Part shown: one piece after another, positions 23,465 to 39,201 of the stretch | How positions within the stretch are numbered: position 1 is the first letter of the stretch | Layout of the letters: every line of letters starts with the position of its first letter | Source: Candidatus Aegiribacteria sp. MLS_C | Lineage (GTDB): Bacteria; Fermentibacterota; Fermentibacteria; Fermentibacterales; JCC-6 | DNA: 64,000 nucleotides | Assembly: GCA_002030045.1 (NCBI GenBank) | Contig: LQBI01000024.1 | Span: 248,001-312,000, forward strand | Direction: 5' to 3' | The notes under the pieces: model-generated | The model's input: the letters and a program-made list of their open reading frames with translations, nothing else | Told to the model about the DNA's origin: nothing | Databases searched by the model: none | Made by a program: the position numbers and the translations under genes

Positions 23465-25819
23465 TCAGCCGCCGTGGGCGGTCCTCCTCATTATCTCGTC
23501 CTGAAGCTCCCTGGTGAGATCGCAGAAGTAGTCGCTGTAACCGGCGACTCTCACTATCAGGCTGCCGTAATCCTCCGGGGCGTTCTGTGCTGCGAGGAGG
23601 GTCTCCCTGTCCACGACGTTGAGCTGGACATGGTGACCGCCCAGCCTGAAGTAGGTCCTGATCAGGGCCGCCAGCTTCGATCGCTCCTCATCGGTCTCCA
23701 GCATTCCCGGAAGGAACTTCTGATTGAGAAGGGTCCCGCCGGTCCTGGAATGGTCAAGCCTGGAGGCGGAGAGCAGGACCGCCGTAGGACCGTTCCTGTC
23801 GGTTCCCTGCACGGGGGATATGCCTTCAGAGAGCGGTCTTCCCGCCCTCCTTCCATCGGGAGTGGCTCCGGTCACGCTTCCGAAGTACACATGGACGGTA
23901 GTCGGAAGGAAGTTGATATGGTATTCCCCTCCCCTTCCGTTGGGTCTTCCGTCGACGGCGGCCAGACAGATGTCCTGTACGGGGCGGATGAAACGGTCCA
24001 CCCCGGGATCGTCGTTACCGTACCTCGGAGTCCTGTTCCAGAGCATCTGCCTGGTGGCCTCCCTTCCCCGGAAATCACATGAGATGCTTTCCAGGAGCTG
24101 CTTCATGGTCATTGTGCCGCCCGGGGCGAACACATGATGCTCCACTGCCGATATGCTGTCCAGAAGAGTTCCCAGACCTACGAACTGTATATATGTGGTG
24201 TTGTACCTGGCCCCTCCCTGGTGATAGTCCAGCCCCCTGTCGATGCAGTCTTCTATCAGCAGCGACAGGAATGGAGCCGGCATCTCCGCAGCGTAGAGGT
24301 TCTCGATGTAGTCGTTCCCCTTCATCTTTATGTCCGCAAAATGCCTGACCTGTTCCTCGAAAGCCTTCAGGAGACCATCAACGCTCGCAAATCCAACGGG
24401 ATCGGCAGTGGGTTTCCCCAGCATTCTTCCAGTGGAAGGGTCCCTTCCGGAATCAAGTGTGATCTCCAGTATCTTCACGAGGTTGAAATAGCCCGACAGG
24501 TTGTAGTTCTCCATGCCGAAGACCCCCACCTCCACGCATCCGCTGGATCCCCCCAGGAGAGCGTCGGAGAGGCTCTTGCCCTGGTTCAGGAGTTCCTTCA
24601 GTATCATGTCCGCGTTGAATATGGAGGGCTGTCCGAAACCCGCCTTCACCATCTCCAGGGCCCTGTCCAGGAAGGCCGGTTCCGTAGCCTCCCCTATCTG
24701 CACCGAGAGGCTGGGCTGCAGAAGGCGCATCTCCTGTGCCACGTCCACTATCAGGTAGGACAGCTCGCTGACTCCGCTGGAACCGTCGGGCGCCAGGCCT
24801 CCGGTGTTTATCTGGGCGAAATCCGTGTAGGTGCTGCTTTCCATTGCCGTGACACCGACCTTGGGCGGGGCCGGCTGGTTGTTGAACTTGATCCAGAGGC
24901 ACTGCAGGAGTTCCCTTGCCGTTTCCGGAGTAAGGATGCCCTTCTGCAGGTCCCTGAGGTAAAAGGGCAGGAGATGCTGGTCCAGCTTTCCCGGACTGAA
25001 GGAATCCCAGGGATTCAGCTCGGTGGTCACTCCCAGGTGGACGAACCAGTAGTACTGTACGGCTTCCCGGAAGGTGGATGGTGCGTTCCTGGGCACCCTG
25101 GAGCAGACCGAGGAGATCTGCAGGAGTTCCAGCCTCCGTGCGGGATCGGGTTCCGAGTGGGAGAGCTGGAGGGCTTTCAGGGAGTACCTTTCGGCGAACA
25201 GCATCAGGCTCTCGGCGCACATGTCCATGGCCGTCAGCTGAAGCCTTCTCTTCCTGTCGCCGCCTGCCTCCTCCATGGCTCGGGCTATGCTCCTCCTGAT
25301 ATCCTCCATGCCCATGCTGTATATGCTGCCGCCGAGGACGGTATGACCGGGGGACCTCTGCTCCATGAACTCCGTGAAGACACCGGCTCCGTAGCATTCG
25401 AGCCATTCGCTGCTCATGCCTTCGAAGATCCTGTCCCGCATGGAGATTCCCTTCCAGAAGGGAATGATCCTGTCCCTGAATACTTCCATCGTCTCCCGGC
25501 TTACCCGGTACGGTATCTTCTTCCTCGTGTCCAGGAGTTCCAGGTCGGCCATGGAGTGACAGCAGAGTTCCGGATAAGTTGGCACGGACTTGGGACATAT
25601 GCCCTTCTCCCCCACGATCAGTTCATGGTCCCCGATGTAGAGAAACCTGCTGTCCAGGAGGTGGTGGAAGACCTTCGCCCTGGCCAGCGGAGGAGGGAGA
25701 TCACGGGCGCACGGCTTGCGGTAGAAGTCGGTGACCAGCACCGCCCTCTCCGGAGATATGAAGGCTGATGTCTCTATACTCTCATCCCTGAGCCTCTTCA
25801 CTCGATCCGACATCGGCAT
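23465..25819 (-). CDS. Glycyl radical enzyme, trans-4-hydroxyproline dehydratase-like
   Basis: The 784-residue enzyme ends with the glycyl radical loop VRVAGYSDYF (G760). The thiyl site is GGSSGCVEVG (C428, with E430), one Cys followed by V-E. This excludes pyruvate formate-lyase, which has two adjacent Cys, and fits the dehydratase/lyase branch (hydroxyproline, glycerol or related substrates). The run from GCVE through LDYHQGGARYNTTYIQ is closest to what I recall of trans-4-hydroxy-L-proline dehydratase, but no P5C reductase gene is nearby to confirm. Its activase gene ends one base upstream (TGAATG). It is the last gene of the long minus-strand run that begins with the membrane hydrogenase. 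Confidence 0.8.
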   Translation of the reverse strand: MPMSDRVKRLRDESIETSAFISPERAVLVTDFYRKPCARDLPPPLARAKVFHHLLDSRFLYIGDHELIVGEKGICPKSVPTYPELCCHSMADLELLDTRKKIPYRVSRETMEVFRDRIIPFWKGISMRDRIFEGMSSEWLECYGAGVFTEFMEQRSPGHTVLGGSIYSMGMEDIRRSIARAMEEAGGDRKRRLQLTAMDMCAESLMLFAERYSLKALQLSHSEPDPARRLELLQISSVCSRVPRNAPSTFREAVQYYWFVHLGVTTELNPWDSFSPGKLDQHLLPFYLRDLQKGILTPETARELLQCLWIKFNNQPAPPKVGVTAMESSTYTDFAQINTGGLAPDGSSGVSELSYLIVDVAQEMRLLQPSLSVQIGEATEPAFLDRALEMVKAGFGQPSIFNADMILKELLNQGKSLSDALLGGSSGCVEVGVFGMENYNLSGYFNLVKILEITLDSGRDPSTGRMLGKPTADPVGFASVDGLLKAFEEQVRHFADIKMKGNDYIENLYAAEMPAPFLSLLIEDCIDRGLDYHQGGARYNTTYIQFVGLGTLLDSISAVEHHVFAPGGTMTMKQLLESISCDFRGREATRQMLWNRTPRYGNDDPGVDRFIRPVQDICLAAVDGRPNGRGGEYHINFLPTTVHVYFGSVTGATPDGRRAGRPLSEGISPVQGTDRNGPTAVLLSASRLDHSRTGGTLLNQKFLPGMLETDEERSKLAALIRTYFRLGGHHVQLNVVDRETLLAAQNAPEDYGSLIVRVAGYSDYFCDLTRELQDEIMRRTAHGG

Positions 25820-26737
25820 TCAGTTCCCCCTGGCCGTGAGGACTCCGGCTTCCCTCAGGAAATCCAGGGCACGAATGATGCCAAGTCCCTCATCCGGATC
25901 AGGTCCTTCCGGAGGTGGGAGGCCCAGACGGGAATACTTGTCCCTCCATGACGAATGGTAGGGCAGAAGCTGCAGGTCCGGCATCAGCGGAAGTCCAAGA
26001 AGGAATTCCGCAACCAGCTGCAGGTTCCTTTCGGTATCGGTAATTCCTGGAATCACGGGCATTCTCAGTATGAATGCCGAGCCGCTTCCGGCCAGCAGGC
26101 GGATGTTGTCGAGCACCCTCGACGCATCCCCGCCGGTATAGTGCAGCATCTCCCCGTCGTCGACCAGCTTGATGTCACAGAGCATCAGGTCCGCCAGGCG
26201 TGACACCCTCATGAACACTTCCTCGGGCGCGCAGCAGGACGTATCCACCGCCGTGTGTATGCCCCTGTCCCTGCATTCGACCAGTATTTCCTCCAGGAAG
26301 TCGGCCTGCAGTAGAGGCTCCCCTCCCGAGAAGGTCACGCCCCCTCCTGAGGTTCCGTAGAACGGAATATCCCTTTCGACCAGGTCCATCACTTCGGTCG
26401 GAGTGGCGTCCATGCCTGCGATCTCCCTTGCGGCAGCCGGGCAGCCTTCCACGCAGATGCCGCAGAGATCACACCTTTCCATGCATATCCTGGACGGATC
26501 CTTCGGATCTATGGCTCCGGATGGACAGACGGAAGCGCAGTTCCCGCACCCTATGCACCTGGAAGCCATGAACACCATCTGGGGAACTGAGAGAATACCC
26601 TCAGGGTTGTGACACCAGTGGCACGAAAGCGGGCAGCCCTTGAGGAAGACCGTGGTCCTGATCCCGGGACCGTCGTGTACGGAGTACCTCTTGAACTGGA
26701 AGACTCTAGCTTTCATCGAGCCGGTAGATTTCCTCAA
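25820..26737 (-). CDS. Glycyl radical enzyme activating enzyme (radical SAM)
   Basis: This 305-residue activase has the radical-SAM motif CPLSCHWC after a PGIRTTVFLKG loop, a two-[4Fe-4S] ferredoxin insert (CIGCGNCASVCP and CDLCGICVEGCP) and the later FSGGEPLLQ motif that binds SAM. It abstracts the Gly hydrogen of its partner enzyme. TTG 26737 is preceded by a perfect AGGAGG five bases upstream. ATG 26716 in the same frame has no comparable site, so the TTG is preferred. It is directly coupled to the glycyl radical enzyme gene. Confidence 0.93.
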   Translation of the reverse strand: MRKSTGSMKARVFQFKRYSVHDGPGIRTTVFLKGCPLSCHWCHNPEGILSVPQMVFMASRCIGCGNCASVCPSGAIDPKDPSRICMERCDLCGICVEGCPAAAREIAGMDATPTEVMDLVERDIPFYGTSGGGVTFSGGEPLLQADFLEEILVECRDRGIHTAVDTSCCAPEEVFMRVSRLADLMLCDIKLVDDGEMLHYTGGDASRVLDNIRLLAGSGSAFILRMPVIPGITDTERNLQLVAEFLLGLPLMPDLQLLPYHSSWRDKYSRLGLPPPEGPDPDEGLGIIRALDFLREAGVLTARGN

Positions 26738-26770
26738 ATGATCCTCCTGAACGAAGATTTAGAGGGAATA

Positions 26771-27316
26771 CTATTCGGAACTCTTCCCGGGCCTGGTCCT
26801 CTCCATGCGACAGAGCGAGGCGAGCCTTTCGGAAACTGTATCCAGCAGTCCCTCGAGCTTCGGTGACAGCGGCGCTCCCAGATCGAGGCAGGCGGGTTGG
26901 ACGGCCAGCAGGAAGACCTCCGCTCCTGTCTCCTGTCGTATCCTGTCCATGACTAGAGCGGGTGAGAGCGTGTGCGTAGTAAAACCCGTGCTTTCCAGGA
27001 GGTCCTGCCTGCGAAGGAGTTCCAGGGTTCCGATATCCCTGTCGAGGTGCACCGCGTCGATGATGACCACCGTGTCCGGCTGCAACCTCGATACCTTTCC
27101 TATGTAGTTCTCCGGGACCGTACCGGCATCCACGGCATCAAGTCCGAAGCCCGCGAGCCTTTCCGCCAGACAGGGTCCGATACCGTCATCACCCCGGAGA
27201 ACGTTGCCTACCCCCATGAAAACGATCCTGCCGCGCAGGGCATCGGTCAGCAGTTCCTCAAATTCCCCGGGGGGACCGCTTTCGGTTATCTGGTCCAATG
27301 TAACCGCTTCAGACAA
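26771..27316 (-). CDS. [NiFe]-hydrogenase maturation protease (HycI-like)
   Basis: The 181-residue protein has the peptidase family A31/M52 signature FMGVGNVLRGDDGIG after an N-terminal extension of about 30 residues, then IIDAVHLDRDIG and FTTHTLSP, matching HycI-type enzymes that process group 4 large subunits. Its substrate should be the large subunit at 33803-34987, which has a 35-residue tail after its last metal motif. The apparent start is TTG 27316 with only a fair ribosome site, so the true N-terminus may be shorter. It follows the ferredoxin gene by 76 bp. Confidence 0.9.
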   Translation of the reverse strand: MSEAVTLDQITESGPPGEFEELLTDALRGRIVFMGVGNVLRGDDGIGPCLAERLAGFGLDAVDAGTVPENYIGKVSRLQPDTVVIIDAVHLDRDIGTLELLRRQDLLESTGFTTHTLSPALVMDRIRQETGAEVFLLAVQPACLDLGAPLSPKLEGLLDTVSERLASLCRMERTRPGKSSE

Positions 27317-27392: not shown

Positions 27393-28007
27393 CTATTCCT
27401 CGTAGGTGGCGGTCTTGCGGCGGCATTCTGCGCAGAGGATCTTGACCCTGTCCGACCGGCCTTTGTCGGCGAGGACAGCCTGGATGTTGTCGTCCGCCAG
27501 TCCCAGTTCCCTGAGCCTGGTCAAGTAGAGCGTGGGATTCGAGAAGGAAAGCTCGCCAAGCTTCTCGGCGATCCAGATAAGATGATCCCTGGTGGCGATG
27601 ACATCGCCGCATACCTCACAGAGCTGAAGCTCCTTCTCTATGGTTTCGAAGGCCTTGCTCCTGTCGAAGTAGGAGAGTTCCCACTTGTTGCCGAGGACTA
27701 TGGCCTTGTCCCCCGGGTCCCTTATGCAGGAATCCTGGCAGACTCCGCAGAAAATGCAGTCGTCCGTGTAGTGGATCATGACCCTCATGGGGACATCACC
27801 ATCCAGCCTGTCCTCGTGCGCGATGGCGCCAGAAGGACATGCCTCCTCGCATGCGAGACAGCCCAGGCATTTGTCCTGGTCGAACTCCGGCTGGCCCCGG
27901 AAGTTGGGGTGAGGAACGTGGGGTTCGGCGGGGAAACTAGATGTGTACGGCCCTTTTACGAGGGCCTTTATCGCTTCTGCAAGTTCTCTTACCTTTGGAT
28001 ACTTCAT
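27393..28007 (-). CDS. mbhN: Two-[4Fe-4S] ferredoxin subunit of the membrane hydrogenase with zinc-ribbon-like tail
   Basis: The 204-residue protein has two [4Fe-4S] motifs (CLGCLACEEACP and CIFCGVCQDSCI), as in the MbhN/EchF/NuoI subunit that receives electrons for the membrane hydrogenase. Unlike the usual short subunit it continues about 100 residues with a CEVC...CAEC pair that could form a zinc ribbon. It starts 12 bp after the MrpG gene with GGATGGG in front. The tail might add a docking site for an electron donor. Confidence 0.85.
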   Translation of the reverse strand: MKYPKVRELAEAIKALVKGPYTSSFPAEPHVPHPNFRGQPEFDQDKCLGCLACEEACPSGAIAHEDRLDGDVPMRVMIHYTDDCIFCGVCQDSCIRDPGDKAIVLGNKWELSYFDRSKAFETIEKELQLCEVCGDVIATRDHLIWIAEKLGELSFSNPTLYLTRLRELGLADDNIQAVLADKGRSDRVKILCAECRRKTATYEE

Positions 28008-28019
28008 ATTCCCATCCGC

Positions 28020-28358
28020 CTAGGCTTCGCCCTCTTTGTCCTCAGCGTAGCTGTCCACGACGCTCCTGTCCCACAGCTTTATACCCGCTCTGTGGGCTCC
28101 GCGGGAAACGGCATGGGCAGCAACCGGAGAGGCCAGGACGAGGAAAACGATGGCTATCAGAGCCTTGAAACCCGTTTCAGTGAAACCTCCGGAAACCAGG
28201 AAGGTACCGAATAGAATACCGCAGGTACCCAGGGTAACGCATTTTGTTGCCGCCTGAAGACGGTTGTAGACATCGGGCAGCCTGACCAGTCCAAGGCAGC
28301 CGAGAACGTCGAAACCGAGCCCCAGTCCAATGAAGATCATACCTATTGTATCAATCAT
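28020..28358 (-). CDS. mrpG: Mrp-type antiporter subunit MrpG (MbhC)
   Basis: Small membrane protein (112 aa) with three helices and the MrpG pattern DVLGCLGLVRLPDVYNRLQA, common to Na+/H+ antiporter MrpG and hydrogenase subunit MbhC. I start at ATG 28358, which overlaps the end of the MrpF gene; a TTG three bases upstream is possible. The Mrp module gives the hydrogenase a route for Na+ or H+ translocation. Confidence 0.88.
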   Translation of the reverse strand: MIDTIGMIFIGLGLGFDVLGCLGLVRLPDVYNRLQAATKCVTLGTCGILFGTFLVSGGFTETGFKALIAIVFLVLASPVAAHAVSRGAHRAGIKLWDRSVVDSYAEDKEGEA

Positions 28359-28722
28359 CAAAGCTTCTTCCTTCCAGGTACTTGGAAAGCGCCAGCGTTC
28401 CGATGAAGCTCTGAAGTCCCCAGGCTATACCTATGTCTATATACCAGGAACGTCCGGTGGCGATGCTCAGCACCGCACACAGACCGACTATCAGTATTCC
28501 GAAGATGTCTATCGCAACTATCCTGTCCGCTGCAGTGGGGCCCCTCAGCACACGGAAGAGGACCAGGAGCGAGGAGAGTATCAGGATGTAGACGACCCTT
28601 CCCACGAATCCTATGTGCTCCGGGTTCTGCCGGAAGAAGATACTCCTGAAGGGAAGTACGATTATGAGGATTATCAGTCCCAGAAGCACCACTGCGCCGG
28701 CGATCCATCTGAGTCGTTTCAT
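28351..28722 (-). CDS. mrpF: Mrp-type antiporter subunit MrpF (MbhB)
   Basis: The 123-residue protein has three helices and the conserved RVLRGPTAADRIVAID loop of MrpF/MnhF subunits. An N-terminal helix of about 30 residues precedes the usual family length. It overlaps MrpE at the start (ATGA) and MrpG at the end. It should form part of the ion-translocating arm of the complex. Confidence 0.88.
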   Translation of the reverse strand: MKRLRWIAGAVVLLGLIILIIVLPFRSIFFRQNPEHIGFVGRVVYILILSSLLVLFRVLRGPTAADRIVAIDIFGILIVGLCAVLSIATGRSWYIDIGIAWGLQSFIGTLALSKYLEGRSFDD

Positions 28723-29234
28723 TGTTCTACCGCGTCTTCTTCGAATATCTTCCTGAGCATCGGTTCGAACCTGCTCCCTATCTCCCTGTAGGTGGTCTCC
28801 GGATCGGTCCCGACAACGTTGATCCAGTGGATGTAGAGAACTCCGTCGTCCCTGTTGATGTCAACGGTAAGGGTTCCAGGAGTGAGGGTTATCGAGTTGG
28901 CCAGGAAGGTCAGGCCGGTATCAGACCTGAGCCTGGTCCTGAGCCTGACTATGCCCGGTCTGATAGGCATTTCCGGATGTATGACCCTGTAGGCAACGTC
29001 GAAGTTGGCCTTGATGAGCTCCCATGCAAAGACCGGCACGTACCAGAACACGAAGTAGAATATCCGTATCGGATTGAAGAGCATGTGCGGCCTGGTCAGG
29101 AACATGGATCCCATCACCAGCGCCACCACCATCGACACCGCAGCTCCCGCTATGAGATGCTGTATGTCCGGTACCCATGTCAGTATGCACCAGACAACGA
29201 AGGAGAAGATGAACATCAGTCCTCTGCTCTTCAT
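28719..29234 (-). CDS. mrpE: Mrp-type antiporter subunit MrpE (MbhA)
   Basis: The 171-residue protein has two N-terminal helices, an amphipathic stretch and the MrpE/MnhE C-terminal segment (ANSITLTPGTLTVDI, then LYIHWINV). ATG 29234 has GGAGGG seven bases upstream and starts one base after the stop of the MrpD gene (TGACATG), so I prefer it to the start eight codons earlier. It links the Mrp arm to the rest of the complex. Confidence 0.88.
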   Translation of the reverse strand: MKSRGLMFIFSFVVWCILTWVPDIQHLIAGAAVSMVVALVMGSMFLTRPHMLFNPIRIFYFVFWYVPVFAWELIKANFDVAYRVIHPEMPIRPGIVRLRTRLRSDTGLTFLANSITLTPGTLTVDINRDDGVLYIHWINVVGTDPETTYREIGSRFEPMLRKIFEEDAVEQ

Positions 29235-29235
29235 G

Positions 29236-30735
29236 TCACATCCCTCCATTTTCGGCAAGCACCCTCACCGCAGGCGATAACAGCACGTCCCTGACCTGGG
29301 GTACCAGCAGCAGGCCGCCGAATATGCACATGAGGGCCAGGATTATCAGCGGTATCCGCATCAGGGCGGGCACTTCCCTGATGTCCCTGAACTTCTCCCT
29401 CAACTCCCCGAGGAACGCGAAACGGGTTACCTTCAGGACGTAGGCGATGGTCACGATGCTCATCAGGACTGCCCATGCCGCCAGCTTCATGTGATGGGCC
29501 TGTACAGCGGCCACTATAATGACGAGCTTGCTCCAGAAACCGGCGAAGGGGGGTATTCCGGCAAGGGACATGGCCCCGGCAAGCGTGGATCCGCTGGTCA
29601 CGGGCATCTTCCTGGCGAGACCGCCCATCTCCTTCATGTTCCTGGTCCCGGTGGCGTATTCGACCGCTCCCGAATCCAGGAACAGCAGCGACTTGAACAT
29701 CGAATGGTTGAACAGGTGGAAAAGGGCTCCCATGATACCGAGAGGGGTCCCTATTCCGAAGCCCAGCATGATGTATCCAACCTGGCTTATGGAACTGTAC
29801 GCGAGAAGACGCTTCATATCCCACTGCCGAAGGGCGACCAGCGCTCCCACTCCCATGGATATCGCCGCCAGGACCAGCAGGATGATCGAAACCTGGCGGG
29901 GAAACCCGAATACGGTGATGAAAACCCGTGCTATGGCGTAAACCCCGAGTGCCTTGATAAGGACTCCCGAGAGCATGGCGGAGATCGGTGCGGGGGCTGA
30001 TGGGTGGGCATCAGGCAGCCAGGCATGGAACGGCACAATCGCCGCCTTGAGCCCGAATCCGGCCAGGAACAGACCGAAGACGAGGTATATCAGCGCCGGC
30101 TGGACGGACCATTCAGACAGGACGGTTTTCATGTCCCCCATGTTGAGCGTACCCGTGGCGCTGTAGAGGAAGATGATACCGAGGAGGATCAGCAGGGAGG
30201 CGACCCCTCCCATCACGGCGTACTTGAATGACGCCTCCAGCTCCCTCTTGCCCGTACCGAAGCCTACCAGGGCATAGCTAGCTATGGAGGCGACCTCCAC
30301 GAAGACGAAGAGGTTGAACATGTCTCCCGTCACCAGTACGCCGTTCATTCCGGCCAGCATAAGCAGGAACAGGGTGTGGAACTGCCACTTGTCCGTGTAG
30401 CGGGTCATGTAACTTACGGAGTAGACCGCCACCAGGAAGGCTACGAAGTTGACTATGAGCAGCATGAAGATGGTGAAACCGTCCACCACCATCTGTATGC
30501 CGACGATCCTTCCCATCACCTCCTGGAATCCGCCCCAGTTGCCCACGTTGAGCACCAGCACGGTCCTTTCCGCCTGCATCCTTACGAGAAAGAAGACGGA
30601 GAGGACGAAACCGGAAAAGGATGACATCACTCCAAGGATGTCGGGAATACCCCTGACCCTCTTCAGAAGGGCGGTAAGGAATGCGCCGGCCAGTGGGACG
30701 GCAACAAAGAGAGGTACTATGCTTTCACTGATCAT
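29236..30735 (-). CDS. mbhH: Antiporter-like subunit MrpD/MbhH of the membrane hydrogenase
   Basis: The 499-residue NuoN/MrpD-type subunit has about 14 helices. The key residues for ion transfer are present: E147 in the TM5 segment FVFVEVAS and K230 in the TM7 segment GLKAAIVPFHAWLPDAHP. The broken-helix loop with HPSAPAPISAML follows. It lies between MrpE and MrpC, as in archaeal MBH. It should be the working ion-pumping subunit. Confidence 0.9.
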   Translation of the reverse strand: MISESIVPLFVAVPLAGAFLTALLKRVRGIPDILGVMSSFSGFVLSVFFLVRMQAERTVLVLNVGNWGGFQEVMGRIVGIQMVVDGFTIFMLLIVNFVAFLVAVYSVSYMTRYTDKWQFHTLFLLMLAGMNGVLVTGDMFNLFVFVEVASIASYALVGFGTGKRELEASFKYAVMGGVASLLILLGIIFLYSATGTLNMGDMKTVLSEWSVQPALIYLVFGLFLAGFGLKAAIVPFHAWLPDAHPSAPAPISAMLSGVLIKALGVYAIARVFITVFGFPRQVSIILLVLAAISMGVGALVALRQWDMKRLLAYSSISQVGYIMLGFGIGTPLGIMGALFHLFNHSMFKSLLFLDSGAVEYATGTRNMKEMGGLARKMPVTSGSTLAGAMSLAGIPPFAGFWSKLVIIVAAVQAHHMKLAAWAVLMSIVTIAYVLKVTRFAFLGELREKFRDIREVPALMRIPLIILALMCIFGGLLLVPQVRDVLLSPAVRVLAENGGM

Positions 30736-30751: not shown

Positions 30752-31105
30752 TCATCCTCTTAATTCCCGCATCCTGGTTATGTCGAAGGTCCCGTACTTC
30801 CCGTAGAGCCTGATGGCCAGAGCTATCATGAATGCGGTGGTTGCCAGTCCGATGACTATCGACGTCAGCACCAGGGCATGGGGGAGCGGGTCCACCATGG
30901 ACTGGGGAGCTATATGCTCGGTGGTCGAGAAGATGGCCGCCCTCCCTCCGGCCTTGTAGGCCACCAGGATGAGGAACAGGTTGACCGCGTACTCGGCTAT
31001 CACGACACCCAGTATTATCTTGATGATGTTCCTCTTGGAGAGGACCGCATAGATACCGATGCAGAACAGTATCAGGCAGAGTATGTACGGCATGTGCGCG
31101 TTCAT
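30752..31105 (-). CDS. mrpC: Mrp-type antiporter subunit MrpC (MbhG, NuoK-like)
   Basis: The 117-residue three-helix protein has the NuoK/MrpC pattern: helix with ISxxNIIKIILGVVIAEYAVNLFL and a loop ending DPLPHALVLTSIVIGLA. It overlaps MrpB upstream by an ATGA. It forms part of the lateral channel near the antiporter subunit. Confidence 0.9.
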   Translation of the reverse strand: MNAHMPYILCLILFCIGIYAVLSKRNIIKIILGVVIAEYAVNLFLILVAYKAGGRAAIFSTTEHIAPQSMVDPLPHALVLTSIVIGLATTAFMIALAIRLYGKYGTFDITRMRELRG

Positions 31106-31560: not shown

Positions 31561-32101
31561 GGTTCTCCTGTAGATCTTCCTCTTTTGTCCTGCCCCTGCT
31601 TCTCATGACCGTTAGCACTCCTACGACCGCGGTGAAGAGCACCGTGGCCTCTCCGAGTGTGTCGTAAGCCCTGTAGTCGAGTATGACGGATGTCACCACG
31701 TTCGTGGCTCCCGTGCCGGCAACTGCGTTCAGGGGATAGAACTCGGAAACCGTCATGAGAGGCTCACCGAAGGGATTGAGCCCTCCGTCGAAGGTCAGTA
31801 TGCCCGCGACAACGGCCAAACCGAGGAACAGCACTGCCATGAAACCTCCGAAGGGCCTGCTGCTGCAGGGTTTCGTCGCGATGTCCCTGTGAAGGGTCGC
31901 CCTGATAAGCAGGATGACCGCGGCTATTTCGACCACTATCTGCGTTATCGCCACGTCCGGGGCCTTCAGGAGTAGGAAGATGATGGAAAGCCCAAGGCCG
32001 ACTATGCCCACCGCCACGACGGCGGAAAGAAGATTCCTGACCTCTATCGCAATTATCGCTCCGGCGATCATCAGCCCCAGAAGCACGTATAGTTCTATCA
32101 T
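31553..32101 (-). CDS. Fused MbhD-MbhE subunit (MrpA C-terminal part)
   Basis: The 182-residue protein holds two units that are separate genes (mbhD, mbhE) in archaeal MBH. Residues about 1-70 match DUF4040/MbhD (LLKAPDVAITQIVVEIAAVILLI), and residues about 85-170 match the MbhE/MrpB-like N-terminal part of MrpA (SVILDYRAYDTLGEATVLF). The fusion has the same order as the C-terminal part of MrpA. It has about five helices and sits between the NuoL-like gene and MrpB. The start has TTAGGA five bases upstream. Confidence 0.85.
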   Translation of the reverse strand: MIELYVLLGLMIAGAIIAIEVRNLLSAVVAVGIVGLGLSIIFLLLKAPDVAITQIVVEIAAVILLIRATLHRDIATKPCSSRPFGGFMAVLFLGLAVVAGILTFDGGLNPFGEPLMTVSEFYPLNAVAGTGATNVVTSVILDYRAYDTLGEATVLFTAVVGVLTVMRSRGRTKEEDLQENHE

Positions 32102-32114: not shown

Positions 32115-33806
32115 TCAGATCAGAACGATGCACAGCACCGCCAGGCCTATCACGAACCAAAGGAGGTACCTGGACAGTATACCGTTGTGCATGAAGGAGA
32201 AAACGATCCCGAAACCGGCCGCTATCTTCTGCAGGACCTCGTAGAGGTCGAACAGCTTCTTCTCCGCCAGCCGGTATATGACCTTCAGGATGCCGATTTC
32301 CCTTATCGTCCTGTAGAAGTCCACTCCCGAGACCCTCATGTCCGGGTTCTTCTCCAGGGTTTCCCCTCCGATGAAAGGTGCCACGATCCTGGCTTTTCTG
32401 ATGGAGCCCGAGAGGTATATGAGGTATCCTATCACCAGACCTGCCAGCAGCACCAGTGTCGCCGGTCCCGACTGCCATATGCCCGGCATGTGGAGCTCTC
32501 CTCCGACGCCGGGTCTGAAGTAATCGGCGAAGGGGATCTTCCATGCGATCACGCCGAGGCCGATGCAGAGAAGTGAAAGGACGGCCAGTGGAAGGATCGT
32601 GAAGAAGCCGGTCTTCTCCCTGCTTTCGATCACCTCCCTTGATATCTGCGAGGGCTGCCCGAGGAAGACGCTGTGCACGAGTTTCATGAAACTCGCCAGT
32701 GTGAGGGCGCTACCCAGCATGGCGGCTACCAGCCACACCACCCACAGAGTACCTCCTCCGGATATCACTCCCTGGTACAGCATCCATTTTGATGCGAAAC
32801 CGTTGAAGGGCGGTACTCCGGATATGGAGAGCGAGGCTATCAGGAACGCGGCGAACACCATGGGCATGGCCTTCACGAGACCGCCAAGCCTGGCAAGGTC
32901 GGAGGTACCCGTCCTTCTCTCAACCTCCCCGCCGGCCAGGAACAGGCTGGACTTGTATATGGTGTTGTTGAACATGTGGAACAGCGCACCCGCGATGCCC
33001 ACCGGGTTCCCGGTCCCGATGCCCAGTACCATGTAACCGACCTGGCTCACGGCGTGGTAACCGAGGAGGCGCTTGAGATCGTGCTGGACCAGCGCCATCA
33101 TCACCGCCGCCATGATCGTTACGCTTCCCAGCGCCATGAGTACGGTGTTCATGGCAGGCGTCATCACGAAAACCTCGAGGGTCACCCTGGCCAGGAAGTA
33201 GATCCCCAGCAGCTTGTCGAGGGATGCCGGAAGGAATGCGGTTACCGGAACAGGTGCATCCCTTGCGGTATCCGGAAGCCATGTATGGAACGGCATCGCC
33301 CCTGCCTTCGCGAAGGCCGCGGACGCCAGGCACAGATAGGCTATTACCGAACCGGTGGTGTCGAGCTGGATGCCCATTCCGGCGAAGGGAAGCCTGAGGA
33401 AGCCGGGCAGTCCGGTGGAACCGTACCTGATGCTCCAGATAAGTACTATCCCCAGAAGCAGAAGCACGTCTGTTCCACCTATGATGGCAAGCGACTTCCT
33501 GGCTGACTCGGGAGTGCCCTCCTCCCTGCCGAATCCGATGAGGAGATAGAGCATGAGACCCAGGAATCCCCACAGTACAAGGAGCAGAAGGAAGTTGGCC
33601 GAGAACAGGATCCCGAGGGTGGCCAGGAAGGTGGCCAGGATGTAGATGTAATACCTCCAGAGACCCTTCCTCCCGCTCATGTGCCTGAAGGAGTACACAA
33701 CCGTGAATACGAAGAACATTGCGGCGAAAACGGCGCAGACAACTGACAGAGGGGTGCTTGCGAAGTAGCCGCCGGGGTTCTTCAGAGCATCGATCAGGTA
33801 CTTCAT
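32115..33806 (-). CDS. Second antiporter-like (NuoL/MbsH'-like) subunit lacking the TM5 glutamate
   Basis: This 563-residue protein has the NuoL/MrpA/HyfB fold: about 14 helices, TM7 lysine K167 in AKAGAMPFHTWLPDT and a long C-terminal amphipathic region followed by a last helix. In the TM5 motif where NuoL has W-E-G it reads LWGFLGLMLYLLIGFG, so the conserved Glu is replaced by Gly80. It takes the position of MbhI in MBH or of the extra antiporter subunit of archaeal MBX/MBS, and its C-terminus resembles MbhI. It overlaps the large-subunit gene (ATGA). It may be a structural or altered ion channel. Confidence 0.85.
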   Translation of the reverse strand: MKYLIDALKNPGGYFASTPLSVVCAVFAAMFFVFTVVYSFRHMSGRKGLWRYYIYILATFLATLGILFSANFLLLLVLWGFLGLMLYLLIGFGREEGTPESARKSLAIIGGTDVLLLLGIVLIWSIRYGSTGLPGFLRLPFAGMGIQLDTTGSVIAYLCLASAAFAKAGAMPFHTWLPDTARDAPVPVTAFLPASLDKLLGIYFLARVTLEVFVMTPAMNTVLMALGSVTIMAAVMMALVQHDLKRLLGYHAVSQVGYMVLGIGTGNPVGIAGALFHMFNNTIYKSSLFLAGGEVERRTGTSDLARLGGLVKAMPMVFAAFLIASLSISGVPPFNGFASKWMLYQGVISGGGTLWVVWLVAAMLGSALTLASFMKLVHSVFLGQPSQISREVIESREKTGFFTILPLAVLSLLCIGLGVIAWKIPFADYFRPGVGGELHMPGIWQSGPATLVLLAGLVIGYLIYLSGSIRKARIVAPFIGGETLEKNPDMRVSGVDFYRTIREIGILKVIYRLAEKKLFDLYEVLQKIAAGFGIVFSFMHNGILSRYLLWFVIGLAVLCIVLI

Positions 33807-34987
33807 CTGACCCCCATCCTCCGTTTTATCCTATCGGTCTTCTCCCTGCTGAGCTGGATGAGGTCCTTGCCGCCGTAGAGAATCCTGCCCCCCGTGTCCT
33901 TGACCGCTATCCTCTCGGTGCAGCAGTAGCATGGATCAATGGCGGCCAGGATTATCGTGGCATCGGATATGGTCTCACCCTGTACCGTAGCCTTGTAAGT
34001 GGGGAGGTTCATGAAGGTCGGAGCCCTCACCTTGTGCCTGACCGGCCTGTTGGTCCCGTCGCTCTTGACGTAGTGGAAGGTCTCGCCCCTGGGGGCCTCT
34101 ATATGGCCTATGCCTTCGCCCGGAGGGACGTCCTTGATGTTGGCGTCTATCTCTCCTCCGGGAAGATGCTCGAGGCAGAACCTCATGATCTTCGCGGACT
34201 CGAACATCTCCAGGATCCTCACCACTGCCTTGTCGAAAACGTCACCGTTGCTGGTGACGATCATGTCCCACTCCATCTCCTGGTAGGCACCGTAGGGCGA
34301 ATCCTTCCTCACGTCACGGGCGACACCGGAAGCCCGGGAGGTGGGACCAAGGGCGCTGAAATCTATGGCTTCCTGGTAGGTCATCACGCCCACCCCCTTG
34401 AGCCTGGCGTGCAGCACCGGATCGTCAAGGACAGCTTTCTTCAGCATGTCCAGCGTGGGCAGGATGGATTCGATCTTCCTGATACATATGGGGATGTCCT
34501 CCGGCTTGATATCCCTTCTGACCCCCCCGGGCTTGAACATGGCGTAGTTGTTCCTGTTGCCGGACAGGATCTCCATCACGTCGAGGATCTCCTCCCTCAG
34601 CTTCCAGGCCCACATGTAAACCGTGTTGTAGCCCAGGAAATGCCCGGCCAGACCCAGCCAGAGCAGATGGGAATGGATCCGCTCGCCCTCGGCGATGATG
34701 GTTCTGATGTACTTGGCGCGAATGGGCACTTCCATGGGGAAGACGTCCTCGACCGCCCTGGTATACGCGAAGGGATGGCTTGTGGAACAGATGCCGCATA
34801 TCCTCTCGACGACGAACGTGCTGTTCTCGAATGTCTTCATCTCGGAGAGCTTCTCGATGCCCCTGTGGTTGTATCCTATTCGGACGTCTATGTCGACGAC
34901 GGTCTCACCCTCGACCGTCAGGGTGAAGAGCTCGGGTTCCTCCTGAAGAGGATGGTACGGGCCGATGGGAATTATCGTCCTGCCCAT
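33803..34987 (-). CDS. mbhL: Group 4 membrane-bound [NiFe]-hydrogenase large subunit
   Basis: The 394-residue catalytic subunit has both nickel motifs: ERICGICSTSH (C64, C67) and DPCYCCTER (C353, C356), the group 4 form with Arg at the end. All four Ni ligands are present, so it is a true hydrogenase and not an MBX/MBS or complex I relative. After R359 a 35-residue tail remains, as in HycE before HycI processing. ATG 34987 follows the stop of the NuoC-like gene (TGACATG) with GGGGAG in front; the frame extends 23 codons further upstream without homology. Confidence 0.95.
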   Translation of the reverse strand: MGRTIIPIGPYHPLQEEPELFTLTVEGETVVDIDVRIGYNHRGIEKLSEMKTFENSTFVVERICGICSTSHPFAYTRAVEDVFPMEVPIRAKYIRTIIAEGERIHSHLLWLGLAGHFLGYNTVYMWAWKLREEILDVMEILSGNRNNYAMFKPGGVRRDIKPEDIPICIRKIESILPTLDMLKKAVLDDPVLHARLKGVGVMTYQEAIDFSALGPTSRASGVARDVRKDSPYGAYQEMEWDMIVTSNGDVFDKAVVRILEMFESAKIMRFCLEHLPGGEIDANIKDVPPGEGIGHIEAPRGETFHYVKSDGTNRPVRHKVRAPTFMNLPTYKATVQGETISDATIILAAIDPCYCCTERIAVKDTGGRILYGGKDLIQLSREKTDRIKRRMGVR

Positions 34988-34988
34988 G

Positions 34989-35462
34989 TCAGACTCCCCT
35001 TGTCCTGTCGGCCTTCTCGTCCCACTCCTCATAGTCCTGACGGAGCGGATAGACACCTTCCGGCCAGTTGTCCGCCAGGAGCAGTCTCCTGGGGTCGGGA
35101 TGACCGGTGAAGGTGATCCCGAGAAGTTCGCTCATCTCCCTCTCGATCCAGTTGAGGGCCTCGATGTCCTTTCCCAGCGAATCCATTACCGGATGCTCCC
35201 TGTCGATCAGCACCCTCAGAGAGATGAGGAGGTTTATGTCCTCGACGATGAAATGGTAGAGGATCTCGATGTTGGGCGGCATGTCGGTCCCGGACGCTAT
35301 GTTGAACCTTGCGCCCAGGTTCCTGAACAGGTACGTTCCGATCCTTACCATCGATTCCGGCCTTACGGTGATGTAGACCCTGGAATGCGACTTGTCGTAG
35401 AGGTCCAGTATATCCTCGTGGAAACGGCTTGTGAAATCCAGAAGTACTTCTTCTCTTGTCAT
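34989..35462 (-). CDS. mbhK: NuoC-like 30-kDa subunit (MbhK/EchD)
   Basis: The 157-residue soluble protein shows the NuoC pattern in its second half: LISLRVLIDREHPVMDSL, then NWIEREMSELLGITFTGHPD and the closing LADNWPEGVYPLR. It holds the large and small subunits together. It overlaps the NuoB-like gene (ATGA) upstream and ends two bases before the large-subunit ATG. Confidence 0.92.
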   Translation of the reverse strand: MTREEVLLDFTSRFHEDILDLYDKSHSRVYITVRPESMVRIGTYLFRNLGARFNIASGTDMPPNIEILYHFIVEDINLLISLRVLIDREHPVMDSLGKDIEALNWIEREMSELLGITFTGHPDPRRLLLADNWPEGVYPLRQDYEEWDEKADRTRGV

Positions 35463-35884
35463 TGGGAGCCGCCCACCCTTTCGATAAGTTTCACGACGCC
35501 GGCAATTATCGCTTCGGGCTTTGGAGGACAGCCGGGAATGTAGACATCCACCGGAATTATCTGGTCAAGGGGCTGCGGGCAATTGTAACTGTCCTTGAAG
35601 ATCCCCCTGGACGCCGCGCAGGTGCCTATGGCGACCACGAGACAGGGTTTTGGAACCTGTTCCCACAGGGCCTTCAATCTCTCCACCGACATCCTGTTGC
35701 CGGAACCGGTTACCAGCAGTACGTCCGCATGCTTGATGCTCCCCGCAAGCAGCATGCCGAACCTTTCTATGTCGAACCTGGGGGTAAGACAGTCCAGCGT
35801 CTCGATATCGCAGTTGTTGCAGCTTCCCGTCGAGAGGTGGAAGACCCAGGGGGATTTCAGGAGCGCTTTAAGCTTCAGGCTCAT
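35459..35884 (-). CDS. mbhJ: NuoB-like small subunit (MbhJ/EchC) of group 4 hydrogenase
   Basis: The 141-residue subunit carries the proximal [4Fe-4S] cluster next to the NiFe site. The four ligands are C22 and C25 (TGSCNNC), C89 (IGTCAASRG) and C119 (IPGCPPKP). The short length and single cluster are typical of group 4, complex I-like enzymes. It lies between the membrane subunit M and subunit K. Confidence 0.93.
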   Translation of the reverse strand: MSLKLKALLKSPWVFHLSTGSCNNCDIETLDCLTPRFDIERFGMLLAGSIKHADVLLVTGSGNRMSVERLKALWEQVPKPCLVVAIGTCAASRGIFKDSYNCPQPLDQIIPVDVYIPGCPPKPEAIIAGVVKLIERVGGSQ

Positions 35885-35904
35885 GACGGTGCAGCCTTAC
35901 CCTT

Positions 35905-36816
35905 CTATATGCCATTCAACGCCAGCACGACGGCGGCTGTTGCCAGGACCGTCATCGGTCCCCAGAAGAACCTGACGGCCTGGTCGATACGGACCCTGGG
36001 ATTCGTGTTGCGTATAACCGTTATCAGGGCTACGATCCCGACGTATTCCAATAAGGTCCAGAGGATGTTGATCCCGTTCAGACGCATTCCACCGAAGAAC
36101 AGGATGATCAGGAAGAAAGGAAGCGTGAACAGGAGCATGTTCTTCATCAGCCTGAAGACTGCCAGGCCCGGTCCGGAGTATTCCACCAGCGGCCCTTCCA
36201 CTATCTCGGTCTCGGCCTCCGGTATGTCGAAGGGGACCAGGGCCAGTTTGGCCTGGACGCACAGCAGCGCGACTATCAGTGCGATTATACCTGACAGGTG
36301 GCCGGCAGTTATGCCGTCTGACTGATTCTCTATTATTCCACTGATGCTCAGGTCTCCCGCCCATATCACAGGTACCAGAGTAGCAAGGATGAACGGAAGC
36401 TCGTAGGCCATCACCAGCTTCATCTCCCTGGAGGCGCCCAGGCTCGCCAGCGGGTTCCTCGAGGCGAAGCCCCCCAGTATGATGCTCAGGGAAGGTACAG
36501 TGAGCAGGTAGATGGCAACGATCCAGTCACCCATGAAGCCGCCTTCGAAGAACTGGTTGACCCAGAAAAGAGTTGCCGCCGCCACGACTCCGGCGAGACC
36601 TATGACCGGTGCCATCAGGAAGGTCCCCCTGGATGCCCCCGCGGGGATTACCGTCTCCTTTCCAAGCAGCTTGACGATATCAATGAAGGGCTGAAGGAAC
36701 GGGGGGCCGACCCTGTACTGCACTCTGGCGGTAACCTTCCTGTCGATCCAGCTGGTGACCAGGCCCAGGGCCGCGGTGGCTGCGAAACCGAACACGATGA
36801 GGTATACGAAAGTCAT
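35905..36816 (-). CDS. mbhM: NuoH-like membrane subunit (MbhM/EchB)
   Basis: The 303-residue protein has eight helices and the NuoH signature segments: DRKVTARVQYRVGPPF near the first helix, SREMKLVMAYELPFI, and the loop FDIPEAETEIVEGPLVEYSG. It anchors the catalytic module in the membrane and starts the chain of charged residues that couples to the antiporter subunits. The correct start is ATG 36816, overlapping the upstream ferredoxin stop (ATGA); the longer frame upstream is out of register with any homologue. Confidence 0.93.
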   Translation of the reverse strand: MTFVYLIVFGFAATAALGLVTSWIDRKVTARVQYRVGPPFLQPFIDIVKLLGKETVIPAGASRGTFLMAPVIGLAGVVAAATLFWVNQFFEGGFMGDWIVAIYLLTVPSLSIILGGFASRNPLASLGASREMKLVMAYELPFILATLVPVIWAGDLSISGIIENQSDGITAGHLSGIIALIVALLCVQAKLALVPFDIPEAETEIVEGPLVEYSGPGLAVFRLMKNMLLFTLPFFLIILFFGGMRLNGINILWTLLEYVGIVALITVIRNTNPRVRIDQAVRFFWGPMTVLATAAVVLALNGI

Positions 36817-37355
36817 GCCCTGCTCCTGTCCCAGTGGGTCGAGTGGACCACGAGCCGGTTGCCCAGATGGAAGATGTTCTCTCCCTCCATGTCCTCGTCG
36901 GCGAGCGCCAGGGCTCCGTAGGGACAGGTGGGGATGCAGGTGTAGTCTCCGCGGTCCTGGCAGTAGTCGCATATGTTGGACATCCTGGGAAGTATCTCGG
37001 GGTATATCGTACCGTAGGGGCAGGCGTGGGAACAGGACCTGCACGCCACGCATCTGACCGTGTGCCTCACCAGGGTTCCGTCCTCCTTCTTCTCCAGGGC
37101 ATCCTTCGGACAGGCGTTGACGCAATGAGGTTCCTCGCACTGTCTGCATACGAGGGCGTAGGTGGCCAGCTCGATGAGAGAGATGACCCCGTTGTTCCAG
37201 GGATGGTAGAAGTAGCTGCACTTGATAACGCATTCCTCGCACACCTCTGAACTGCATATGTCCAGATCAATGAACAGCTTCTTTCCGCTCTCCTTCTTCC
37301 CCACTGCGTCGATGTCGCCGTGAAGCTGGTCGATGGTGGTCCTGTTCATTTCCAT
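36813..37355 (-). CDS. Four-cluster ferredoxin subunit (HycB/CooF-like)
   Basis: The 180-residue protein has Cys motifs for four [4Fe-4S] clusters: CSSEVCEECVIKC, CRQCEEPHCVNACP, CVACRSCSHACP and CDYCQDRGDYTCIPTCP. This HycB/CooF arrangement normally wires a dehydrogenase to a group 4 hydrogenase. Here no formate or CO dehydrogenase gene is adjacent, and the flavoprotein (37363-38178) and HydB-like protein (38179-39201) encoded upstream are the natural partners. It is separated from them by 7 bp. Confidence 0.9.
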   Translation of the reverse strand: MEMNRTTIDQLHGDIDAVGKKESGKKLFIDLDICSSEVCEECVIKCSYFYHPWNNGVISLIELATYALVCRQCEEPHCVNACPKDALEKKEDGTLVRHTVRCVACRSCSHACPYGTIYPEILPRMSNICDYCQDRGDYTCIPTCPYGALALADEDMEGENIFHLGNRLVVHSTHWDRSRA

Positions 37356-37362
37356 GGCAGCC

Positions 37363-38178
37363 CTATTCCCAGATGCCGGGATAATCCCGGATCATGTCGT
37401 ACGTGAAGACCGGTCCGTCCTTGCAGCAGTAGTAGGGGCCAATCCTGCAGTGTCCGCACTTGCCGAAACCGCAGGACATGTTCTTCTCCATCGAGAGATA
37501 AATGTTCCTGTCCTTGATCCCGAGTTCCTGAAGCTTGAAAGTGGCGAACTTCATCATTATGGGTGGGCCGCAGACGATAGCCCTGGCTCTCGAGAAATCC
37601 ACGTCGATGTCGTTCATTATGGTCGTCACGACTCCCACCGGGCCGTTCCAGGTATCGTCGCACTGGTCGACGGTGAGTTTCATGTCGAGGTCCTTACGGT
37701 CCATCCAGCTCTCCAGTTCCTTTCTGTAGAGCATCTCTTCGGGATTCCTGCAGCCTCCCCTGTAGACCAGCTTCGATATCTGGTCCCTCATATTGAAAAG
37801 ACCGTACATGAGCGTTCTTATCGGCGCCAGGCCGACGCCTCCGCCTACGACCACGATATCCTGACCGATGAACTTCGTAAGAGGGTAGCCCTTGCCGAGG
37901 GGACCCCTGAGACCCACTGTGTCACCGGGTTCCAGTTCGTGTATCGCATCGGTCACTCTGCCCACCCTGACTATGGTTATCTCCATGGTCTCGGTGTTCT
38001 GTGAATCCGAAGAGGGAGTGAACGGGGCCTCACCTACTCCCGGGACCGAGAACTCCATGAACTGTCCGGGTTTGAATGCTATCTTTTCTTTGGGCTTGAG
38101 AAGGAAAGTTTTGATGGTGGGCGTCTCTGTGGTAACTTTAAGGACCTCGGTTTCGATGGAACTGTACGGATTCTTCAT
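37363..38178 (-). CDS. FAD/NAD(P)-binding subunit, HydG/AsrB-like
   Basis: The 271-residue flavoprotein belongs to the ferredoxin-NADP reductase superfamily. The FAD part has GQFMEFSVPGVGEAPFTPSS, the NAD(P) part has VVVGGGVGLAPIRTLMYGL, and near the C-terminus CGFGKCGHCRIG with a later CC forms the [2Fe-2S] site. This is the pattern of sulfhydrogenase gamma (HydG), anaerobic sulfite reductase B and NfnA-type proteins. The ATG directly follows the HydB-like stop (TAGATG). It should exchange electrons with NAD(P)H for the membrane hydrogenase, or alternatively for the group 3 enzyme elsewhere in the window. Confidence 0.9.
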   Translation of the reverse strand: MKNPYSSIETEVLKVTTETPTIKTFLLKPKEKIAFKPGQFMEFSVPGVGEAPFTPSSDSQNTETMEITIVRVGRVTDAIHELEPGDTVGLRGPLGKGYPLTKFIGQDIVVVGGGVGLAPIRTLMYGLFNMRDQISKLVYRGGCRNPEEMLYRKELESWMDRKDLDMKLTVDQCDDTWNGPVGVVTTIMNDIDVDFSRARAIVCGPPIMMKFATFKLQELGIKDRNIYLSMEKNMSCGFGKCGHCRIGPYYCCKDGPVFTYDMIRDYPGIWE

Positions 38179-39201
38179 CTATACTTCCAGTCTTGCCAGG
38201 ACTTCCCTGATGTCGATCTTCCCGGGACAGGCGGCAATGCATCTCCCGCAACCGGTGCAGGCTATCTCGCTGGCCACTTCAGGGAAGTAGTTGAACTTCT
38301 TGTCGAACCTGTTTCGCAGCCTCATCCAAAGCCTGTCCCTGGGATTCTCGCCGCCCGCAACCCTGGCGAAGTCATTTATCATGCATGAATCCCATACCCT
38401 GTACCGAGCAAGCCTTCCGTCAGCCTTCTGATCGTAGAGCAGGAAGCAGTGGCAGGTGGGACATATGGTATTGCATGCGCCACACTCGACGCAGTCCCTG
38501 GAAGAATCCTTCCAGAGATCGGCCTCCTCGTAATTCTTCTGCATCACTCTCTTGAGCCTGTCGACCGAGGGTATCTGCTTCTCCTTGGCGTTCTTCGCTA
38601 CCCGCTTCCTTATATCGTTCCTGTTCTTCTTCGCTGAATCGGCCAGTGCCTTGTCCTCTGTCTCACCGAACATGTCCGAATGGCTCTCGACCAGTTTCCT
38701 CCCCTTCTCGCTTCCAACGGCCACGATGAAGCCGCCTTCCACGGGGGAAAGGTTGAGGTCAAACTCGGCCTCGGGCCACGGGTTCAGGTCAAGCGCGGTA
38801 CAGAAACAGGTATCGCCGACTCCTGTGCAGTCGGCGGATATGATGAGCCCTTCTTTCCTGTGCCTCATGTAGGTGGGGTCTCCGTACTCCTCGTCCATGA
38901 AGACGAAATCCAGGATCCTGAAACCCTTAAGGTCGCAGGCTTTCGCCCCGACTATGCAGGGCGGCTTGTCCTCATGCGGTACACGGGGGCTGAAACCCTC
39001 GGCCACCTTCTCCCTCCCCAGGAAGAAGAACGACTTCAGAGGATCGAAGGACCTTATCTCACCGATGACGTAATCGGTATCGCCCTCCCGGAGCAGGGAA
39101 TACCCCGTTCCCTTCCCCATGACCCTGGGAACGTATACGCGATAATCCGCCCTGAGGGATTCCAGAAGACGATCGAGATCGATTCGTTTTAGAAAAATCA
39201 T
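38179..39201 (-). CDS. Iron-sulfur subunit, sulfhydrogenase beta (HydB/AsrA)-like
   Basis: The 340-residue protein has a long N-terminal domain with GAKACDLKGFRILD, typical of HydB/AsrA proteins, and two [4Fe-4S] motifs near the C-terminus (CVECGACNTICP and CTGCGRCIAACP). Such subunits pass electrons between a HydG-type flavoprotein and a redox core. ATG 39201 begins exactly with the family N-terminus (MIFLKRIDLDRLL); the frame is open 67 codons upstream without homology. No Shine-Dalgarno is seen, and a promoter candidate lies so close that the mRNA may be leaderless. It is the first gene of the hydrogenase run. Confidence 0.88.
   Translation of the reverse strand: MIFLKRIDLDRLLESLRADYRVYVPRVMGKGTGYSLLREGDTDYVIGEIRSFDPLKSFFFLGREKVAEGFSPRVPHEDKPPCIVGAKACDLKGFRILDFVFMDEEYGDPTYMRHRKEGLIISADCTGVGDTCFCTALDLNPWPEAEFDLNLSPVEGGFIVAVGSEKGRKLVESHSDMFGETEDKALADSAKKNRNDIRKRVAKNAKEKQIPSVDRLKRVMQKNYEEADLWKDSSRDCVECGACNTICPTCHCFLLYDQKADGRLARYRVWDSCMINDFARVAGGENPRDRLWMRLRNRFDKKFNYFPEVASEIACTGCGRCIAACPGKIDIREVLARLEV

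Follow-up and report, generated by a model that had tools for sequence, protein, structure and literature searches.

The membrane-bound hydrogenase (MBH) of Pyrococcus furiosus (6CFW; HydDB group 4d) has a NiFe core, the subunits M, J, K and L and an Mrp-like membrane arm, and it takes ferredoxin at its MbhN subunit. The MBS complex of the same organism (also Mbx; 6U8Y) has a two-antiporter membrane arm, lacks the NiFe ligands and reduces sulfane sulfur, and the cytosolic sulfhydrogenase I (SHI; 9NEZ; group 3b) combines a group 3 NiFe core with the subunits HydB and HydG. The formate hydrogenlyase FHL-1 of Escherichia coli (7Z0S; group 4a) has FdhF as its donor and an arm of the HycB-HycF-HycG-HycE type, in which a C-terminal extension of HycF that carries a Cys quartet binds HycB (PMC9474812). 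In Thermococcus onnurineus, a CO dehydrogenase donates to an Mrp-linked hydrogenase (Mrp-Mbh-Codh) that also has a CooF subunit, and energy conservation by this system has been shown experimentally (PMC4731540). A membrane-bound group 4 hydrogenase with an attached NAD(H) module, Mbh-Bfu, has been predicted in Dehalococcoides (PMC9304861). Here we describe an operon for a membrane [NiFe]-hydrogenase in a 64,000-nucleotide stretch of DNA (the window) from Candidatus Aegiribacteria sp. MLS_C (contig LQBI01000024.1, positions 248,001 to 312,000), in which genes for HydB and HydG (together HydBG) stand at the head of a group 4 gene set. Judged from the gene content and its conservation, the products probably form one membrane complex that would couple the reversible oxidation or reduction of NAD(P)H to the evolution or uptake of H2 and to ion translocation.

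The locus shares with MBH the NiFe core, the M, J, K and L subunits and the Mrp-like arm but differs in having an N subunit of the HycF type, an added CooF/HycB-like protein (CooF below) with HydBG, and two antiporter-like subunits; the MBH pattern of a short MbhN-type subunit and no separate donor module is not seen here, cooF and hydBG being always present where this can be checked. With FHL-1 it has in common the HycB-HycF-HycG-HycE-type arm, the C-terminal Cys quartet of HycF and the HycI protease, but HydBG replaces FdhF as the donor, the membrane arm gains Mrp subunits and a second antiporter, and no molybdopterin enzyme that could serve as a formate dehydrogenase component is found among the operon ORFs (open reading frames). 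HydB and HydG are of the same families as in SHI and retain their cofactor ligands, whereas the catalytic subunit belongs to group 4 and the two proteins form a separate clade, marked in HydG by the clade-specific FAD motif GEAPFTPSS. The two-antiporter arm is shared with MBS. Mbh-Bfu likewise joins an NAD(H) module to a group 4 hydrogenase in the membrane but has a bifurcating BfuABC core (NuoEF-like) and no HydBG, and Mrp-Mbh-Codh likewise places a donor module and CooF on an Mrp-linked hydrogenase but with CO dehydrogenase as the donor. As an ion-moving machine the complex would be somewhat like respiratory complex I, except that it ends at a hydrogen-making metal site.

The same gene set was reported in 2019 by Matheus Carnevali et al. 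(PMC6349859), who described asrA, asrB, cooF, Mrp and group 4 genes in one Saganbacteria genome, RX5A, called the locus enigmatic, suggested that it had an "oxidoreductase module" and a role like that of Mbh, and pointed out relatives in Omnitrophica. A literature search for further prior art found this gene set only in that paper. The RX5A locus is a single one that includes a molybdopterin oxidoreductase and was given no donor, whereas most loci described below have no molybdopterin gene, and in many phyla HydBG appears as a dedicated module of the NAD(P)H type with conserved gene order. An earlier interpretation made from the DNA of the window (the sequence-only reading) had called the architecture new, which overstated the case in view of the RX5A gene set and of the NAD(H)-linked Mbh-Bfu, with a different module, predicted in 2022 (PMC9304861). 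What the present analysis adds is the place of HydBG as a part that is dedicated to the system and conserved in many phyla, together with the HycF-type N, a membrane arm with two antiporters, the link to Rex and the NAD(P)H reading.

Organization of the Operon

The operon runs from 39201 to 27393 on the minus strand and comprises 16 genes, identified from the ORF list and from matches to family profiles: HydB, HydG, CooF, M, J, K, L, L5, DE, F, G, H, A, B, C and N, in this order. A HycI-like hydrogenase maturation protease (26771–27316, minus strand; TIGR00142, 101 bits; TIGR00072, 97.5 bits) follows N and is matched in 46 loci of the set described below. Most of the genes overlap or are separated by about 20 bp or less, as measured from the ORF coordinates with the start of M set from its homologues; the genes thus form one tightly packed operon, and the NiFe ligands are intact. 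The sequence-only reading had placed HydB-like, HydG-like and HycB/CooF-like genes ahead of an MBH-like set. All of the genes that it named lie on the minus strand and match their families strongly, and this observation is confirmed. Its subunit list holds good apart from the omission of L5, the second antiporter-like subunit, and N is present as it had claimed but, by profile and fold matches, is of the HycF type and not the MbhN type. Promoter and terminator scans gave signals no better than those in shuffled sequence.

The HydB-HydG-CooF Module

HydB (38179–39201, minus strand), an AsrA-like Fe-S protein that would act as the electron bridge of the NAD(P)H module, matches NF040829 (ShyB, 153 bits) and TIGR02910 (AsrA, 125 bits), both below the cut-offs of the profiles. 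Its reading frame is open to 39402, and the start was taken at the ATG at 39201, where the homologues begin. The best match in the PDB is the β subunit of sulfhydrogenase I (9NEZ_B, E 3.8e-40), and 15 cysteines are kept in all 56 sequences compared. HydG (37363–38178, minus strand; TIGR02911 AsrB, 223 bits) is an AsrB-like protein with sites for FAD, NAD(P) and a [2Fe-2S] cluster. It matches the γ subunit of sulfhydrogenase I (9NEZ_C, E 2.2e-54), and the cluster ligands Cys236, Cys241, Cys244 and Cys252 are present in 61 of 61 sequences. It is a single-FAD protein of the non-bifurcating DHODB/NfnA type. The residues at the end of the Rossmann strand are mixed (YRGGCRNP, RYGARTP and CYGAKTP), and a preference for NADH or NADPH is therefore not called. 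The third protein, CooF (36813–37355, minus strand; PF13247), is a putative adaptor, a four-cluster ferredoxin with 16 cluster cysteines; 13 of these are found in 63–64 of 64 loci, and the other three, which belong to the first cluster, in 55–59. Its profile matches include HycB of FHL (7Z0S_B, E 3.7e-15) and HycB4 of the hydrogen-dependent CO2 reductase (HDCR).

The NiFe Core and the Membrane Arm

The NiFe large subunit L (33803–35056, minus strand; PF00346/PF00374) has a NuoD-like fold and contains both NiFe motifs, RICGICSTSH and DPCYCCTER; its homologues begin near residue 24 of the ORF, at about 34987. The best PDB matches are the large subunits of P. furiosus MBH (6CFW_L, E 5.4e-89) and E. 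coli FHL (7Z0S_E, E 4.3e-81). The two CxxC NiFe motifs, together with partners that match PF00146, PF01058 and PF00329, place the enzyme in group 4, within the complex I superfamily. These partners are M (35905–36816; PF00146, 232 bits), a NuoH-like membrane anchor with conserved acidic residues; J (35459–35884; PF01058), a NuoB-like small subunit with one [4Fe-4S] cluster and conserved Cys22, Cys25, Cys89 and Cys119; and the NuoC-like K (34989–35462; PF00329), all on the minus strand. In a tree with few references and long branches, L falls in a clade of its own (support 97/97), apart from P. furiosus MBH.

The membrane arm is encoded by genes that follow L on the same strand. L5 (32115–33806; PF00361, 181 bits) is a NuoL/MbxH'-like antiporter-like subunit that aligns over residues 10–558, its length, with the second antiporter subunit of MBS (6U8Y_X), and H (29236–30735; PF00361, 246 bits) is the MrpD/MbhH-like antiporter subunit, matching MbhH (6CFW_H) with E 3.2e-87. 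The Mrp-type set (MbhD/E, MnhB, NuoK-like, MrpD, MNHE, MrpF and MnhG) is otherwise made up of DE (31553–32101; PF13244 and PF20501), which resembles the C-terminal part of MrpA and MbhD-MbhE, the MrpB-like F (31102–31560; PF04039), the MrpC/NuoK-like G (30752–31105; PF00420), the MrpE-like A (28719–29258; PF01899, 160 bits), the MrpF-like B (28351–28722; PF04066) and the MrpG-like C (28020–28361; PF03334). With two antiporter-like subunits as well as Mrp parts, this arm is nearer to that of MBS than to that of MBH.

The last gene encodes N (27393–28007, minus strand; NF009053, FHL Fe-S subunit, 91 bits), a HycF-type two-cluster protein of 204 residues. It has eight cluster cysteines and a C-terminal quartet (Cys130, Cys133, Cys192 and Cys195), the latter found in 52 of 52 sequences. 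Among complex I-type subunits its best profile match is E. coli HycF (7Z0S_F, E 1.5e-27, compared with 1.1e-18 for 6CFW_N), and the fold of N matches HycF with a Z score of 15.7 over 160 residues (span 5–202), whereas MbhN and NuoI chains match with Z of about 10 and cover only residues ~33–124. The extension is missing from N in four Omnitrophota hydrogenases of another L type, which have no cooF or hydBG. Because the extension docks HycB in FHL and is lacking in this sister-type N, the N subunit looks built to receive CooF, which would in turn receive HydB, as its homologues suggest.

Conservation of the Linkage

A scan of one genome per species gave 80 loci, and nearly all of the relatives are metagenome-assembled genomes. 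Across these loci hydB, hydG and cooF precede the genes from M, J, K and L to N in the same order, with L identities of 60–93%; the relatives at 85–93% are Fermentibacteraceae, Fermentibacteria and Aegiribacteria. Since the whole block is conserved, a chance origin is excluded. The loci that carry hydBG come from about 14 phyla, mostly of uncultured bacteria, a count taken from record titles, in which bin labels may err. The 20 loci without hydB all begin less than 500 bp from the end of the available DNA. In four Spirochaetota loci (L061, L062, L066 and L069) the operon is split into a hydB-hydG-cooF-J-K-L-N set and a separate set of membrane genes, the two lying on opposite strands in L066; HydBG therefore travels with the soluble arm.

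As an unbiased check, the linkage was also followed through 193 Omnitrophota genomes, 48 of which have an L with at least 60% identity. In 40 of these 48, hydG lies 2.2–3.1 kb upstream of L on the same strand; in the other eight, hydG is on another contig (five), the locus is near the start of a contig (two) or the stretch is masked (one). This last locus (G070), where the stretch is masked by Ns, is the single apparent loss of hydBG, which was accordingly rejected. The 29 Omnitrophota matches of the other L type (39–46% identity) all lack a linked hydG, and the remaining 29 Omnitrophota HydG matches compared (36–48% identity) all lack a linked L of any kind. Three Omnitrophota loci (L188, L189 and L191) contain another type of group 4 enzyme near F-type ATP synthase genes; L is 40–46% identical with intact NiFe ligands, N is short, and cooF and hydBG are absent.

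In relatives the operon is headed by rex, which encodes the NADH/NAD+ sensor (Rex family, 265 bits) and lies directly upstream. A Rex box (TTGTGAANNNNTTCACAA, matched at 12–14 of 14 positions) precedes rex in 5 of 15 rex-bearing loci, as compared with 0.033 expected; two of the five are perfect, TTGTGAAAAATTTCACAA and TTGTGAATAATTTCACAA, upstream of rex-hydB at loci L070 and L106.

Assignment of HydBG to the Membrane Hydrogenase

In phylogenetic trees, proposed as a check by the sequence-only reading, HydB and HydG each form one clade (100/99) apart from Hdr-linked pairs and from the group 3b proteins, among them those of P. furiosus SHI (9NEZ), a separation recovered in every one of 200 bootstrap trees. 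Because L was used to gather the in-group, the trees show shared descent of the linked copies and not the number of other clades. Only one HydB is encoded in the host genome, where no further HydG-type protein exceeds 36% identity; the group 3 hydrogenases of the host are of the Vhu type, the window proteins at 919–3277 being of the VhuA and VhuG types. The possibility, raised in the same reading, that HydBG serves these enzymes in trans thus fails. Four independent lines (synteny, the Omnitrophota check, phylogeny and the content of the host genome) make HydBG part of the present system, and they support the view that HydBG and the HycB-like protein are an electron module dedicated to the membrane hydrogenase, a role predicted from their sequences.

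Neighboring Genes

The sequence-only reading had extended the system over 23465–39201, an interval that is too long. The part at 23465–26737, directly downstream of the operon, encodes a glycyl radical enzyme of the trans-4-hydroxyproline dehydratase type (HypD type; NF043068, 1078 bits against a cut-off of 1100) and its activase, and the system ends at the HycI-like protease. The glycyl radical enzyme was considered as a part of the system and rejected, as it lies beside the hydrogenase in only 1 of the 80 loci (L036). Hyp maturation genes are found near the operon, HypF at 20029–22281 (minus strand), HypA at 22380–22745 (plus strand) and a HypB-like gene at 22607–23428 (plus strand), as is an AIRS-family protein that is probably HypE (17607–18695, minus strand). 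The host has two Vhu/Mvh-type (group 3c-like) large subunits, one in the window (919–3664) beside a VhuG-like small subunit and one at G000:C6:537-1802; just upstream of the Vhu-type genes in the window is a DnaA-like AAA+ protein (3801–5300; TIGR00362, 154 bits, far below the cut-off of 344). A second L-like protein of the host (G000:C7:26271-27347; 33% identity) has no match to a NiFe-hydrogenase Pfam family and is probably a subunit of complex I or of an Ehr-type complex.

Discussion

In the complex proposed here, electrons from NAD(P)H would enter at the FAD of HydG and pass through its [2Fe-2S] cluster to the clusters of HydB, then through the four clusters of CooF, the two of N and the one of J to the NiFe site in L, each step being predicted from homologues. 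Redox turnover at L and J would drive M, the antiporter-like L5 and H, and the Mrp subunits in the manner of MBH, MBS and the complex I superfamily. The physical assembly, the order and direction of electron flow, the ion species and the use of NADH or NADPH are matters that we infer. Cellular NADH is at about −280 mV (PMC9304861), and the H+/H2 couple is at about −296 mV at 10 Pa H2, by a Nernst estimate from −414 mV. The step from NADH to H2 is therefore near equilibrium at ~10 Pa H2, and the ion gradient can set its direction: during fermentation the gradient would be spent to dispose of NAD(P)H as H2, and with abundant H2 ions would be exported. The host genome also encodes Rnf (523 bits) and one [FeFe] hydrogenase, so that reduced ferredoxin, NADH, H2 and the ion gradient are all interconvertible.

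The main rival is that the enzyme is a ferredoxin-driven, MBH-like hydrogenase in which HydBG and CooF form a side branch that splits ferredoxin electrons between H2 and NAD(P)+. HydDB labels the uncharacterised group 4g, the role of which is undetermined, "ferredoxin-coupled (putative)" (PMC5037454), and Mrp-linked Omnitrophota enzymes have been assigned to 4g with ferredoxin as the donor (PMC8542988), though Omnitrophota hold at least two L clades. Ferredoxin or other donors can feed CooF-type proteins, direct ferredoxin input may occur here, and the host Rnf already exchanges reduced ferredoxin and NADH at the membrane. However, N, the subunit that accepts ferredoxin in MBH, here belongs to the HycF type and carries the extension for docking HycB, and HydBG is never absent wherever the assembly permits checking; we regard this rival as unlikely, if deserving of attention. 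Confurcation, in which NAD(P)H and reduced ferredoxin would jointly yield H2 as in HydABC/Bfu and the membrane arm would add ion coupling, is thermodynamically appealing, and membrane Mbh-Bfu complexes with group 4 hydrogenases have been predicted in Dehalococcoides (PMC9304861). The operon has one flavoprotein with one flavin site, HydG, which is of a single-FAD type; it has no BfuBC/NuoEF-like subunit and no second flavoprotein similar to NfnB or HdrA. Bifurcation is therefore unsupported and was rejected, and confurcation is highly improbable. Of the role that the sequence-only reading gave to HydBG, the dedicated electron module of the membrane hydrogenase stands and the bifurcating element does not.

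Genes for molybdopterin enzymes bear on a further alternative, a hydrogenlyase for formate or another C1 compound, in which the HycB/HycF-type arm would serve a molybdopterin enzyme in trans and HydBG would handle NAD(P). FdhA lies a few kb upstream of hydB in three Clostridia-type loci (L082, L085 and L092; TIGR01591, 868 bits for L085), a molybdopterin-binding protein is encoded inside the operon of L160, between hydG and cooF, and the Saganbacteria RX5A locus has its molybdopterin oxidoreductase. Neither this operon nor that of most relatives encodes such an enzyme, formate dehydrogenase not having been searched for elsewhere in the genome, and we give this alternative a shade less credence than confurcation. 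The molybdopterin genes at a few loci suggest that CooF is a hub to which other donor modules can be attached. That HydBG merely shares the operon and serves another enzyme in trans, whether a group 3 hydrogenase or a sulfite or polysulfide reductase, has a precedent in the HydBG-like pairs that serve group 3b and Hdr-linked enzymes elsewhere, but the VhuA-type group 3 enzymes of the host, its one HydB, the strict linkage and the separate clade leave it largely refuted, and for the group 3 hydrogenases of the host it was rejected on these grounds.

Some observations weigh against a single NAD(P)H-linked complex. Conserved linkage alone is no proof of one complex, and the AlphaFold model of CooF is poor, with a predicted local distance difference test (pLDDT) score of 61. 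Given FdhA and the molybdopterin genes in some relatives, donors other than NAD(P)H may also be used. The DNA ahead of the window operon yielded no Rex box, and the link to Rex in this species is therefore by homology only.

By a slight balance of probability, we are inclined to see in the complex a second, independent joining of an NAD(P)H-oxidizing module to a complex I-type pump, ending at NiFe and not at quinone, in which a sulfhydrogenase HydBG, an FHL-type arm and an MBS/Mrp-type membrane arm are combined and which would be widespread in anaerobic candidate phyla and tuned by Rex. If the proposal is correct, the NAD(P)H pool and H2 are joined in about 14 anaerobic phyla by an energy-conserving link that can be tested directly, and this would help to explain how fermenters that do not respire balance NADH at low H2, by means of an ion gradient. 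The default label of "ferredoxin-coupled" that metagenome papers give to such enzymes would be brought into question. The complex would also be a living parallel to the step in the evolution of complex I at which a hydrogenase-like ion pump acquired an NADH module, differing from complex I in having another NADH module and in its retained hydrogenase function.

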